Assembly: GCF_036077095.1 (NCBI RefSeq)
Contig: NZ_CP107961.1
Coordinates: 62,001-126,000, forward strand
Source of the DNA: Streptomyces sp. NBC_00376
Lineage (GTDB): Bacteria > Actinomycetota > Actinomycetes > Streptomycetales > Streptomycetaceae
DNA length: 64,000 bases
Direction of reading: 5' to 3'
The notes below the pieces were generated by a model. It was not told where the DNA came from, did not search any database, and saw nothing but the letters and a program-made list of their open reading frames with translations. Of the stretch, positions 12,101 to 18,100 are shown piece by piece. Every line of letters begins with the position of its first letter. Positions within the stretch are counted from its first letter, which is position 1. Position numbers and translations under genes: made by a program.

Positions 12101-15100
12101 GGTGCCGCCGGTGATCAGGACCGTGCCCCGTACCTTCCAGTCGCTGTGCGGGCCTGCGGCGGCCCGCACGACACGCCGCACGAAGGCACCTGAGGACCGG
12201 ACGGCGACCTGGTCCTCGCTCCCGCCGTCGCCGTGGTCACTGGCGTTGGCCAGGATGGTGGCGGTGCGGTCGAACGCGCGGGCGTCCAGGGTCTCGGGCA
12301 GGTCGATCAGACCGCCCCAGCTCTTCGGGTGCTCCAGCGCCACGACCCGGCCCAGACCCCAGACCTGGGCCTGGGCGGGGCTGCGCAGCGGGTCGGCGGG
12401 ACCGGTCGAGACGGCGCCCCGGGTCAGGCACCACAACGGCGCCTCCACTCCGGCCGAGACCAGGTTCTGGACCAGGTGCAGCGTGGAGGACAGACCCGGG
12501 GAAACACCTCGGTCGGGAGCACTGTCGTCGATGCCCAGGAGGGAGACGACACCGGCAACGTCGAGGTCGGAGGGCAGGCCGGTGCCGTCCGCGCGGACGA
12601 CCTGCGCACCGGCCGCACGCAGACCGGACTCGCACCAGTCCACGACATCCATGACGTCCGCAGGACCCGATTGCGGTACGACGAGCAGCCACCGGCCCGA
12701 CAGCATGCCTGCCTGCGGCTGTATGGGTTTCCAGGTGACGCGGTATCGCCATCCGTCGACCTCGGAACGCTGCTGCTGCCGGCGCCGCCAGGACGACAAC
12801 GCGGGCAGAACCTCGCCCAGCGGAGCATCGGCCGACAGCTCCAGATCACCGGCCAGCCCGGACAGATCCGCCCGCTCAACAGCCTCCCAGAACTCCGCGT
12901 CGACCGGGTCGGCGGAGGTTTCGGGGGCCGCCTTGGGCGGCGCCGGCCAGTACCGCTCGTGCTGGAAGGCGTAGGTGGGCAGATCGACGCGCTGGGCGCC
13001 GGTGTTCGCGTAGTACGCGGCCCAGTCGACAGCGGTGCCCCGCACGTGGAGCTCGGCCACAGCAGCCATGAGCGCTTCGGCCTCGGCGCGGTCCTTGCGC
13101 AGCGCCGGTACGAAACCGGCGTCCTCCGTCACGCACGCCTGGCCCATCGCGGAGAGGACTCCGCCGGGCCCGAGCTCCAGGTACGTGGTCACGCCCTGGG
13201 TTTCGAGGTGACGGATGCCGTCGAGGAAGCGGACGGCCTGGCGGACGTGGTCCACCCAGTACTCGGCGCTCAGCAGCTCCTCACCCGCAACCTCACCGGT
13301 CAGATTGGAGACGATCGGCAGCTTCGGAGCGTGGAAGGTCAGGCCCTCGGCGACCGCCTTGAACTCGGCGAGCATGGGCTCCATGCGCGGCGAGTGGAAC
13401 GCGTGGCTGACCCGCAGCCGCTTCGTCTTCGCGAAGCCCGACGCGATGGCGAGTACGGCGTCCTCGTCACCCGAGATGACGACAGCATCCGGACCGTTCA
13501 CAGCGGCGATCGAGACGCCGTCGACCAGCAGCGGCAGGACTTCCGCCTCCGTGGCCTGGACGGCGACCATCGCGCCACCGGTCGGCAGCGCCTGCATCAG
13601 ACGACCACGGGCGGCAACGAGCGCCGCCGCGTCCTCCAACGACCACACGCCCGCGACGTGCGCGGCGGCCAGCTCACCGATGGAGTGGCCGAGGAGGTAG
13701 TCCGGGGTGACGCCCCAGTGCTCCAGCAGCCGGAACAGCGCAACCTCAACAGCGAACAGTCCGGCCTGGGTGTAGACGGTCTGGTCGATCAGCTCCGACC
13801 CACCGAACACGATGTCCTTGACCGGCTGGTCCAGGTGCCGGTCGAGCTCCGCACACACCGCGTCGAACGCATCGGCAAACACTGGGTACGCCTCGTACAG
13901 CTCACGGCCCATCCCGGCCCGCTGCGAACCCTGACCCGAGAACAGGAACGCCGAACGACCCGTGACCGTCTGGCCCTTCACAACGCCCGCGGCCGTCGTT
14001 CCAGCAGCCACCGCCCGCAGCAACGCCTCACGGTCCTCACCGACCACCACCGCACGGTGCTCGAACGCCGTACGCGTCACGGCCAGCGAGTAACCCACAT
14101 CCAGCGCCGAGGCAGTGCCCACCAGGCCGAGCAGCCGCTCCGCCTGACCCGCCAGTGCCTCCTCCGACCGGGCCGACAGCACCCACGGCACCACCGGCAG
14201 CGCCGAGGCAGCCGCCTCGTTCAGCTCCCGGATCGCGAGGTCCGTCCCGCAGCCGACCGCGCGCTTGCGCAGCGCCGCCACGGCGGTGGTCAGCTGTTCC
14301 AGGGCAGGGCCGTTCTTGCGGAGTACCGACACGGTCAGTGCCGTGCTCTCGCCGAGGCATGCCCGGCCGAGAGCGGTGAGCACACTGTCCGGGCCGAGTT
14401 CCACGAACTGCTCTGTGCCCAGCTCGCGGAGCGCGTGCATGCCGTCGAGGAAGCGGACGGCCTGGCGGACGTGGTCCACCCAGTAGCCGGCCGTCAGCAG
14501 TTCCTCGCCGGCGAGTTCGCCGGTGAGGTTGGAGACGATCGGGATCTGCGGTGCGTGGAAGGTCAGGTTCTCCGCGACTGCCTTGAACTCGGCGAGCATC
14601 GGCTCCATGCGTGGCGAGTGGAAGGCATGGCTGACCCGCAGTCGCGCCGACCGGTCGAACCGGGCGGCCACCGCCAGTACCGCGTCCTCGTCGCCCGAGA
14701 CGACGACCGACGACGGGCCGTTGACGGCCGCGATCGAGACACCCTCGGTCAGCAGCGGCAGGACGTCCGCCTCGGCCGCCTTGAGCGCGACCATGGCGCC
14801 GCCGGCGGGGAGGGCCTGCATGAGGCGGCCCCGGGCGGCGACAAGTGCGGCGGCGTCCTCCAGGGACCAGACGCCCGCGACGTGCGCGGCGGTCAGTTCG
14901 CCGATGGAGTGGCCGAGGAGGTAGTCGGGGGTGATGCCCCAGTGCTCGACCAGGCGGAACAGTGCCACCTCGACGGCGAACAGGCCCGCCTGTGTGAACA
15001 CCGTCCGGTCCAGCAGCTCGGAGTCGCCGAAGACGACCTCCTTCACCGGGCGGTTCAGGTGTCTGTCGAGCTCCGCGCAGACCGCGTCGAACGCCTCGGC

Positions 15101-18100
15101 GAACACCGGGAACGCCTCGTACAGTTCACGCCCCATGCCGACGCGCTGCGAACCCTGGCCGGAGAACAGGAACGCGGTCCGTCCAGCGGCATCTTCCGGT
15201 TCTGTCGGCGCTGACAGGGGCAGCAGGCCGCCCTGGTCGTAGCCGTCGGGCGACTCCTCCACGATGACGTGTGCGTTCGTGCCGCTGATGCCGAACGACG
15301 ACACACCGGCACGGCGCGGCTCGTCCCCCGCAGGCCAGGCGACCGGCTCGGTGAGGAGTTCCACCGCGCCCGCCGACCAGTCCACCTGTGTGGACGGCTC
15401 GTCGACGTTGAGCGTCTGCGGGAGCATGCCGTGGCGCATGGCCATGACCATCTTGATGATGCCCGCGACACCGGCGGCAGCCTGCGTGTGACCGATGTTC
15501 GACTTGACCGACCCCAGAAGCAGCGGCTTGTCGGCCGGACGCTCCTGGCCGTACGTGGCCAGTAGGGCCTGCGCCTCGATCGGGTCGCCCAGCTTCGTAC
15601 CCGTTCCGTGTGCCTCGACCACGTCGATCTGGCCGGCGGACAGGCCCGCACTGGCCAGCGCCCGGCGGATGACGCGCTGCTGCGAGGGGCCGCTCGGGGC
15701 GGTAAGACCGTTCGACGCACCGTCCTGGTTCACGGCCGAACCGCGGACCACCGCGAGGACGCGGTGGCCGTTGCGGCGGGCGTCGGACAGCCGCTCCAGG
15801 AGCAGCACGCCCACACCCTCGGACCAGGCGGTGCCGTCGGCGGAGTCCGCGAACGCCTTCACCCGGCCGTTGGGAGCCAGGCCCCGCTGCTTGCTGAACT
15901 CGATGAAGCTGCCGGGCGTCGCCATCACGGTCGCGCCACCGGCAAGTGCCATCGAGCACTCGCCCGAGCGCAGCGCCTGAGCGGCCAGGTGCAGGGCGAC
16001 CAGCGAGGACGAGCAGGCCGTGTCGACGGTGACCGCCGGCCCCTCCAGGCCCAGGGTGTACGAGACACGCCCCGAGACGACACTGCCGGCGGACCCGGTG
16101 GTGAGGAAACCCTCGACACCCTCCGGGACCTCGACCAACTGGGCGACGTAGTCGTGGTACATGAGACCTGCGTACACGCCGGTCTGGCTGCCTCGCAGAG
16201 CGGTCGGGTCGATGCCCGCGTGCTCGATGGCCTCCCAGGAGGCTTCGAGCAGCAGCCGCTGCTGGGGGTCCATCGCGAGGGCTTCGCGCGGCGAGATCCC
16301 GAAGAACACCGGGTCGAACTCGGCCGCCGTGTGCAGGAAGCCGCCCTCCGTGGCGTACGACGTACCGGTGCGGTCGTCACCCTGCTCGAAGAGGCGCCCG
16401 ACGTCCCAGCCGCGGTCCGTCGGCAGCGGGGAGATGGCGTCGCCGCCGGAACCCACCAGCTGCCACAGGTCCTCGGGGCCGGTCACGCCGCCGGGGTAGC
16501 GGCAGCTCATGCCGACGATGACGACCGGGTCGTCGCTGTCGACGGCGACCGGAGCCGAGGCCGTGTCCTGCTGCGCCCGCACACCGCCCGTGCTCTCCGT
16601 GGCGATGTGCTCGGCGAGGACGGTGGCGGAGGGGTAGTCGAAGACGAGGGTGGCGGGCAGGCGGAGGCCGGTGACCTTGCCGAGGCGGTTGCGGAGTTCG
16701 ACGGCGGTGAGGGAGTCGAAGCCCAGCTCGGTGAAGGCACGGTCGGCGGGAACCGCGTCGCCCGACGCGTGGCCGAGGACGGCCGCGACCTCGCTCCGTA
16801 CGACATCCAGCACCAGCCGGATCCGGTCCTGCTCACCGAGGGCCAGCAGCCGCTGGGCGAAGTCGGCGGACTGCCCGGCACCCGCTCGAGCGGTCCGCCG
16901 GTTCGTCGTGCGGACCAGGCCGCGCAGCAGATACGGGACGACCGGCGCCGAACGGAATGCCTCCAGATCCAGCTTGACCGGTACGAGAGTCGCCGAGTCG
17001 GAGCGCAGCGCGGCGTCGAAGAGTGTCAGCCCCTCCTCGGGCGAGAAGGGCGTGATGCCGCTGCGGCTCATCCGCTCCGCATCGGCCGCGTCGAGGCGTC
17101 CTGCCATGCCGCCTTCGGCCCAGGGTCCCCAGGCGAGGGAGGTGGCGGGCAGTCCCTGGGCGTGGCGGTGCTGGGCGAGTGCGTCGAGGAAGGCGTTTCC
17201 GGCGGCGTAGTTGGCCTGACCGGGCCCGCCGAATGTGCCCGAGGCGGAGGAGAACAGGACGAAGAAGGAGAGGTCGAGGTGGGCGGTGAGTTGGTGGAGG
17301 TGCCAGGCGGCGTCGACTTTGGGGCGTAGGACGGTGGTGAGTCGTTGGGGGGTGAGGGTTTGGAGGGTGGCGTCGTCGAGGGTGCCGGCGGTGTGGATGA
17401 TGCCGGTGAGGTGGTCGTTTTGGGTGATTTCGTTGATGAGGGTGGTGAGGGCGTTGCGGTCGGTGGTGTCGCAGGTGACCCAGCGGGCGGTGGCGCCGAG
17501 GTTGTGGAGTTCGGTGATGAGTTGGGGGCCGTTGGGGCCGCCGTTGGGGCGGCGGGCGGCGAGTACGAGGTTGTGTGCGCCGTGTGTTTGGACGAGGTGG
17601 CGGGCGATGAGGGTGCCGAGGGCGCCGTTTGCTCCGGTGATGAGGATGGTGCCGTTTGTGTTGAGTGGTGTGGGTTCGGTGGGTGTGGGTGTGGGGGTTT
17701 GGGTGAGGCGGGGGATGTGGGGGGTGTTGTTGGTGGTGAGGGCGATTTGGGGTTCGTTGAGGGTGGTGAGGGTGGTGAGGGTGTGGTGGTCGGGGGTGGG
17801 TGTGTTGGTGGGGGTGTCGATGAGGGTGATGCGGTCGGGGTGTTCGGCTTGGGCGGAGCGGATGAGGCCCCAGGTGGTGGCTGCGGTGAGGTCGGTGAGG
17901 TCGGTGATGGGGGTGGCGCCGTGGGTGAGGACGATGAGGTGGGTGGTGTCGGGGTGGTCCTCGTCGAGCCAGGTCTGCAGGTGGGTGAGGGTGTCGGTGA
18001 CCCGGGTGTGGACGTCGGTGATCTGGTCGATGTCGGCGTCGGGGCCGGGGATCTCCAGGACTTCGAACTCCCCGGCCGGTGCGGTGTCCGGCACTGCCGG

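Follow-up and report, generated by a model that had tools for sequence, protein, structure and literature searches.

We analysed a window of 64,000 nucleotides from Streptomyces sp. NBC_00376 (contig NZ_CP107961.1, positions 62,001 to 126,000), in which PKS-A, a six-module type I polyketide synthase (PKS), is encoded on the minus strand (6185-35845) in a single open frame of 9886 amino acids (aa). All features below are on the same strand, in window coordinates. Domains were called by single-sequence phmmer and later by hidden Markov models (HMMs) made from domains of this same cluster; curated Pfam profiles were applied to the acyltransferase (AT) and linker segments of modules 4 and 5. In terms of ketosynthase (KS), AT, dehydratase (DH) and ketoreductase (KR) domains, modules 1 to 6 have the orders KS-AT-KR, KS-AT-DH-KR, KS-AT-DH-KR, KS-DH-KR, KS-AT-AT-KR and KS-AT-KR, with an acyl carrier protein (ACP) in each. 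The chain order of modules 4 and 5 is KS4-DH4-KR4-ACP4-KS5-AT1-linker-AT2-KR5-ACP5. The PKS genes cover about 147 kb (68-215 kb of contig C2, which has a plasmid-like size of 674,441 bases) and encode 26 modules. With KS-AT-(DH/ER)-KR-ACP modules in order (ER, enoylreductase), the cluster is a cis-AT modular type I PKS. Exactly one AT is present in 24 of the 26 modules, and some AT in 25. One AT-less and one tandem-AT module were found by one pipeline applied throughout, and the two adjoin.

Module 4 contains no AT core. Its KS (19511-20773; DTACSS, HGTGT and GHTQ present) is followed by a segment (19043-19429) that consists of a KS-AT linker, a scar at about 19190/19189 and a post-AT linker. 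Then come the DH (18161-18976; HMM and sequence motif), the KR (17117-17653; HMM; TGANGALG and YAAGN) and ACP4 (16604-16825; HMM; LGFDSL), a carrier protein without an AT of its own module. Pfam profiles gave no PF00698 match between KS4 and DH4, where only linker profiles match. All remaining motifs searched for in this module (KS, DH, KR, ACP) are present. The scar reads as an in-frame deletion of the AT core. It starts with VFVFP, as do all nine methylmalonyl ATs of the cluster and none of its 17 malonyl ATs. Because the scar keeps this start, the lost AT4 was probably of the methylmalonyl type, an assignment made from a short motif. The corresponding position in S. abyssomicinicus has VVLP, versus VFVFP here. 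A relocation of AT4 to become AT1 was considered and is disfavoured, as the start at the scar is methylmalonyl-like and AT1 is malonyl-type. The AT-less module, in the light of which the tandem can probably be understood, was absent from a preliminary description of this region. The DH-KR parts of modules 3 and 4 are 100% identical over about 1.6 kb (18900-17300) through recent conversion.

Module 5 contains two ATs. The KS (15278-16531; HMM) is followed by AT1 with a C-terminal tail (14189-15181), the KS-AT linker (13949-14188), AT2 (13076-13948), the post-AT linker (12947-13075; from the sequence), the KR (11591-12127) and ACP5 (11066-11293), the last two called by HMM. The preliminary description had reported that a single KS and a single KR flank two full ATs in series, with GHSIGE and HAFH in each and with serines Ser6973 and Ser7381. 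Pfam and motifs agree with all of this, and the two ATs share one open frame. PF00698 matches with 187.7 bits at 15181-14189 (AT1) and with 204.7 bits at 14188-12947 (the AT2 segment), the active serine codons are at 14908-14906 and 13684-13682 (the reported numbers hold when counted from the second Met), and both ATs contain GQGSQ in addition to the two motifs reported. The proteins are 73% identical across 328 aligned residues. The core DNA sequences differ at 204 of 903 aligned bases and therefore are no doubled repeat; the earlier statement that the tandem is not an assembly duplication holds, the more so as other assemblies have the same architecture.

AT1 starts 35 residues past KS5, and the KS-AT linker is absent there. 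Matches to the linker families PF22621 and PF22336 lie in the AT2 segment, and there are none in the AT1 segment. The gap of 120 aa between AT1 and AT2 contains the only KS-AT linker of the module. Over the 25 KS-AT steps of the cluster, the gap is 35 residues before AT1 and 105 to 141 residues in the other 24. Thus AT1, and not the linker with AT2, is the added element, whereas the linker, AT2 and the post-AT linker form an ordinary unit. The second AT had been thought to bring its own KS-AT linker. A linker does precede it, but this is the linker of the module itself, and AT1 is the domain that has none.

HAFH is a marker of malonyl-type ATs, and the arginine of RGRLMQ binds malonate. In all nine listed proteins with a direct KS-AT1 junction (see below), AT1 retains GHSIGE, HAFH and RGRLMQ. 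With GHSxGE and with HAFH rather than YASH, both ATs of module 5 are malonyl-type; the YASH motif corresponds to methylmalonyl ATs in the available text of PMC4763440.

The combination is rare. Protein searches yielded the best 120 of 459 hits (none longer than 7933 aa, up to about 17,300 aa being allowed, so that full-length relatives may be missed), and further searches with shorter context yielded the best 120 of 2375 and the best 120 of 8000. The 322 listed proteins contain 959 complete modules, of which 955 have one AT, three have a tandem (all relatives of module 5) and one has a split AT; as the proteins were picked for similarity to this AT and are not a random sample, the rate is only indicative. 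Five further tandems occur in modules of these proteins truncated by the protein end. Neither a tandem unrelated to this one nor a genuine AT-less module was found among the 959. A seemingly AT-less module in P0289 was set aside, as its AT is divided into two HMM hits. When the DNA of the KS-AT1 junction was compared with 295 genomes, the whole junction was covered only by this genome among the matches listed. A junction protein probe matched one of 392 genomes of the genus (a sample overlapping the 295), namely this genome. In a control, S. atratus (1.7e-60) and S. abyssomicinicus (4.3e-35) were recovered by the probe, and Streptomyces sp. JHD 1 was not.

Named relatives were found through the nonribosomal peptide synthetase (NRPS)-like gene of the cluster. 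Three plasmid records of S. atratus, as well as S. abyssomicinicus, share both the AT-less module 4 and the tandem module 5, each in the same position. In S. atratus NBC 01545, NBC_00043 and NBC_00041 PKS-A has the same order and is one coding sequence each (9894-9895 aa). By their descriptions these records are complete linear plasmids of 898-918 kb, and the best S. atratus match has about 89% DNA identity over this region, a value that points to a different species without establishing it. In S. abyssomicinicus CHI39 the protein identity is 73% for AT1 and 78% for the linker with AT2; the module 4 and tandem sites are free of sequence gaps, and N-gaps occur in the neighbouring KR regions. 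The module 4 scar, compared by eye, is at the same place in S. abyssomicinicus and the three S. atratus records. A direct KS-AT1 junction followed by the linker was observed in nine of the 322 listed proteins, for which module 4 was outside the viewed region: P0204 (this window's own protein or nearly so) and proteins of S. abyssomicinicus, S. chilikensis, Streptomyces sp. NPDC056004, NPDC001966, NPDC127117, NPDC059802, NPDC005808 and UH6. Hence the loss and the gain, both rare, are adjacent and conserved together. That the pair is kept between Streptomyces species suggests that the spare AT serves the upstream module.

A phylogeny of ATs, proposed earlier as a check, was computed for 65 ATs, including six from S. 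atratus (PKS-A only) and three from S. chilikensis; the program warned of long branches for four myxobacterial rows. It speaks against an origin of AT2 by insertion from module 2. One clade (95/98) unites AT1 of this genome with its counterparts in S. atratus, S. abyssomicinicus and S. chilikensis. AT2 of this genome groups with K2 (99/97). In S. atratus AT2 joins A2 and A6 of that genome (99/94), in S. chilikensis it joins A6 of that genome (100/99), and AT2 of S. abyssomicinicus falls among the ATs of its own genome. Since AT1 forms one cross-genome clade and the AT2s cluster by genome, most malonyl ATs here undergo concerted evolution within a genome, a process that AT1 has largely escaped, although portions of it are 94-95% identical to other ATs.

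The preliminary description had also linked this part of module 5 to module 2 by a 70-bp exact block. The block is real and even extends to 86 bp (14025-14110 = 29445-29530). However, this part of module 5 has closer counterparts elsewhere: from AT2 to the KR it shares 96% identity over 2.2 kb with a module that lies beyond the window, K2 and K3 come nearest in a sliding comparison, and the linker is nearest to J1. The homogenisation of AT2s with other ATs of their own genome explains the match of AT2 to module 2, and the identity is best read as the trace of such a recent event.

Ratios of nonsynonymous to synonymous substitution rates (dN/dS) were calculated by the Nei-Gojobori method with our own script, and all values are approximate owing to gene conversion. 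In the comparison with S. atratus NBC 01545 they are 0.108 for AT1, 0.092 for AT2, 0.104 for AT3 and 0.113 for AT6, and 0.077, 0.091, 0.052 and 0.072 for KS3, KS4, KS5 and KS6, respectively. The other two S. atratus records give the same picture. Thus the constraint on AT1 equals that on the other ATs in this comparison.

Tandem ATs are known from starter modules. JomP1 of the jomthonic acid pathway has the order ACP-KS-AT1-AT2-KR-ACP and is compared, in the available text of PMC6117699, with StiA and other myxobacterial starter modules; there, the starter is conjectured to be loaded by the first AT and the extender by the second. The order ACP-KS-AT-AT-KR-ACP observed here is the one given for JomP1, and the starter modules with which JomP1 is compared are those for stigmatellin (StiA), myxalamid, soraphen and myxothiazol. 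The fine anatomy was taken from two fetched myxobacterial loci, and not from the StiA or JomP1 sequences. These are L147 from Hyalangium versicolor (KR not found) and L148 from Paraliomyxa miuraensis (KR present). In both, the ACP is the first domain of the open frame, AT1 directly follows the KS with no linker between them, and a linker, identified by eye, precedes AT2. The KS-AT1 and AT1-AT2 gaps are 35 and 120 aa here, 35 and 105 aa in L147, and 17 and 104 aa in L148. Unlike the StiA/JomP1 type, the tandem described here is not at the start of the line. It is in module 5 of six and is preceded by KS4-DH4-KR4-ACP4 in the same protein. Further, AT1 of the myxobacterial modules is thought to load an unusual starter, whereas the upstream ACP here belongs to an AT-less elongation module. 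AT1 here groups with the malonyl ATs of its cluster and not with the two myxobacterial AT1s, the long-branch warning applying to the rows of the latter.

A module without an AT requires an outside one, and in this respect module 4 is similar to trans-AT PKS. However, only one module of this cluster is AT-less, it has an ordinary KS-AT linker with a scar, and the AT presumed to serve it belongs to the same polypeptide. Moreover, no intact dedicated discrete AT was found by a PF00698 search of the whole genome. This search gave 33 matches, of which all but two fall within long frames of the PKS type. One exception is a FabD-like gene located on a different contig (C1:5988501-5989319), whose best NCBIfam match, fabD, scores below the cut-off. 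The second exception, a partial AT match (profile positions 10-137), is at C2:57044-57445 (L012:17044-17445) in an open frame of 331 aa, about 11 kb beyond the PKS genes and outside the window; GHGAGE replaces GHSxGE in it, so the catalytic serine is absent. On the equivalent flank of the cluster, S. atratus NBC 01545 has genes for a phosphopantetheinyl transferase, an acyl-CoA dehydrogenase and hypothetical proteins.

We infer from this anatomy, its conservation and the constraint on AT1 that acyl loading has been displaced downstream, the AT core of module 4 being deleted and the extra AT1 being built in between KS5 and the linker. KS5 is flanked in front by ACP4 and immediately behind by AT1, and ACP4 has to visit KS5 for chain transfer in any case; because of this arrangement, AT1 could charge ACP4 with malonyl-CoA. 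AT2, in the normal linker-held position, would charge ACP5. Module 4 would then extend the chain with malonate and reduce and dehydrate it according to its KR and DH. AT1 would thus adopt the starter-loading geometry of the myxobacterial modules, which, being the same, would have it charge the ACP before KS5, that is, the ACP of the AT-less module. The extender of module 4 would have switched from methylmalonyl to malonyl, because VFVFP at the scar is methylmalonyl-like while AT1 is malonyl-type. By analogy with the starter modules, it is likely that modules 4 and 5 form a functional bimodule in which AT1 malonylates ACP4 and AT2 malonylates ACP5. The more specific proposal, that an internal cis-AT elongation module is charged by an AT of the next module located between KS5 and the linker, with a change of the extender in module 4, is on balance somewhat favoured.

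Several observations speak against the displacement of loading. In S. atratus OK807 the single contig with the tandem has modules 3 and 4 fused, and the AT-less module was not found in contigs of at least 3 kb. It is likely that this fusion is a repeat collapse in a draft assembly, probably because of the 1.6-kb identity between these modules. In Streptomyces sp. JHD 1 the AT1 junction was not found, its contig beginning at the linker. GQGSQ of AT1 is GQGAQ in five of the nine listed proteins and in the S. atratus records, and an altered motif at this site is suspected of inactivating an AT in the jomthonic acid paper, as far as its available text goes (PMC6117699). This concern is tempered by GQGAQ also being present in all nine methylmalonyl ATs of the cluster. 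In the same source, the action of the myxobacterial AT1 on the upstream ACP is termed a conjecture. In the comparison with S. abyssomicinicus, dN/dS is 0.32 for AT1 with its tail, higher than 0.23 for the linker with AT2, 0.20 for KS4 and 0.11 for KS5. Thus AT1 is constrained there, but less than its neighbours. In the comparison with S. atratus, ACP4 (74 codons) has 0.30, versus 0.12 for ACP3 and 0.10 for ACP5. DH4 and KR4 have 0.34 and 0.68, yet DH3 and KR3 also have 0.28 and 0.53. In addition, partial homogenisation has taken place between modules 3 and 4. Finally, AT2 could in principle charge both ACPs.

This last possibility leads to another arrangement, in which ACP4 and ACP5 are both charged by AT2, or by the two ATs interchangeably, and the second AT only adds capacity. 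Both ATs being malonyl-type with their motifs fits it, as do reports that ATs can act on foreign ACPs (PMC6164871, available text). We regard it as unlikely, as AT1 forms a separate lineage, which was not overwritten by conversion over its full length as AT2 was (although parts of it do resemble other ATs), and as it is under constraint. ACP4 might instead be charged from elsewhere, by AT3, the FabD-like enzyme or another trans-acting protein, with AT1 as an unrelated relic or in an editing-type role. A FabD-like AT does exist in the genome, and AT-null modules of 6-deoxyerythronolide B synthase (DEBS) are rescued by discrete ATs, including malonyl-CoA:ACP transacylase, according to the accessible part of PMC6164871. 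However, the adjacency and joint conservation of the loss and the gain would be left unexplained, and the AT-like frame near the cluster has no catalytic serine. Editing is less likely given the retained RGRLMQ. Acyl hydrolases, which are editing homologues of ATs, are marked by lost signature residues; AT1 keeps GHSIGE, HAFH and RGRLMQ, with GQGAQ for GQGSQ in some strains. Overall, charging from elsewhere is quite unlikely. It is distinctly improbable that module 4 only passes the chain to module 5 without extension, AT1 then being redundant. Such skipping would agree with the missing AT and with the high ratios of KR4 and ACP4, and is at odds with the ratio of KS4, near those of KS3 and KS6, with the presence of all motifs searched for and with the retention of the module in S. 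atratus and S. abyssomicinicus.

The two remaining alternatives concern the origin of the structure. The preliminary description had taken the linker and AT2 for a cassette from module 2, or from a common source, inserted into module 5; the exact block, now extended to 86 bp, agrees with module 2. We consider a copy from module 2 highly improbable, as AT1 is the extra element of module 5, and as S. abyssomicinicus and S. chilikensis also have the tandem, with an AT2 that in each is similar to the ATs of its own genome. An assembly error would be conceivable in a repetitive region, where modules 3 and 4 share a long identical stretch. It can practically be discounted, since other strains and species have been assembled with the same order, three of these assemblies being recorded as complete plasmids.

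Cis-AT lines are taught as self-contained modules. If loading of ACP4 by AT1 is true, an AT and its ACP need not share a module, and modules 4 and 5 are a natural, stable displacement of an AT within a cis-AT line. They would also show how nature can exchange an extender and leave the KS-AT interface as it is, which could serve as a design. For annotation, an AT-less module in a cis-AT cluster is not necessarily dead. The parallel with the myxobacteria suggests that an ACP preceding a KS can be charged, as a general solution, through the tandem-AT geometry seen in starter modules. The tandem order in starter modules, AT-less modules in trans-AT lines and cross-module service by an ER were known already. 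The last is exemplified by azalomycin F, where a domain serves a neighbouring module lacking it; in the available text of PMC9899208 the ER acts on the next module downstream, whereas the AT here would serve the preceding, upstream module. Consecutive ATs also occur in PtxA, OzmM and BryP, which are free-standing trans-AT proteins according to the accessible parts of PMC5764310 and PMC6164871, whereas both ATs here are inside one cis-AT module. An internal elongation pair of this kind was not among the results listed by searches of open-access full text on this topic, subscription papers being mostly outside these searches. The new element, as judged from the sequences, appears to be the StiA/JomP1-type anatomy in an internal elongation position rather than in a starter.

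Some further features of the cluster may be mentioned. The KR of module 6 of PKS-A (7564-7043) has a low score of 59 bits and may be inactive; its counterpart in S. abyssomicinicus has 58 bits. The TGGxG pattern has no match in this KR, but it likewise misses the KRs of modules 2-4, so that this carries little weight. The second module of the gene at C2:135834-151523 has an AT that scores as malonyl-type, and that of the S. abyssomicinicus gene 140352-156035 (L126) one that scores as methylmalonyl-type, a possible extender switch between corresponding modules. Finally, genes at 47403-48656 and at L009:2996-8355 encode a class II 3-deoxy-D-arabino-heptulosonate 7-phosphate (DAHP)-synthase-like protein (below the curated cut-off), an MqnA-like protein (by eye, no NCBIfam match), a protein similar to clavaminate-synthase-type oxygenases (below cut-offs) and the NRPS-like protein. 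A text search based on the MqnA-like, DAHP-synthase-like and NRPS-like genes led to no compound. Together the four genes hint at a chorismate-derived starter.

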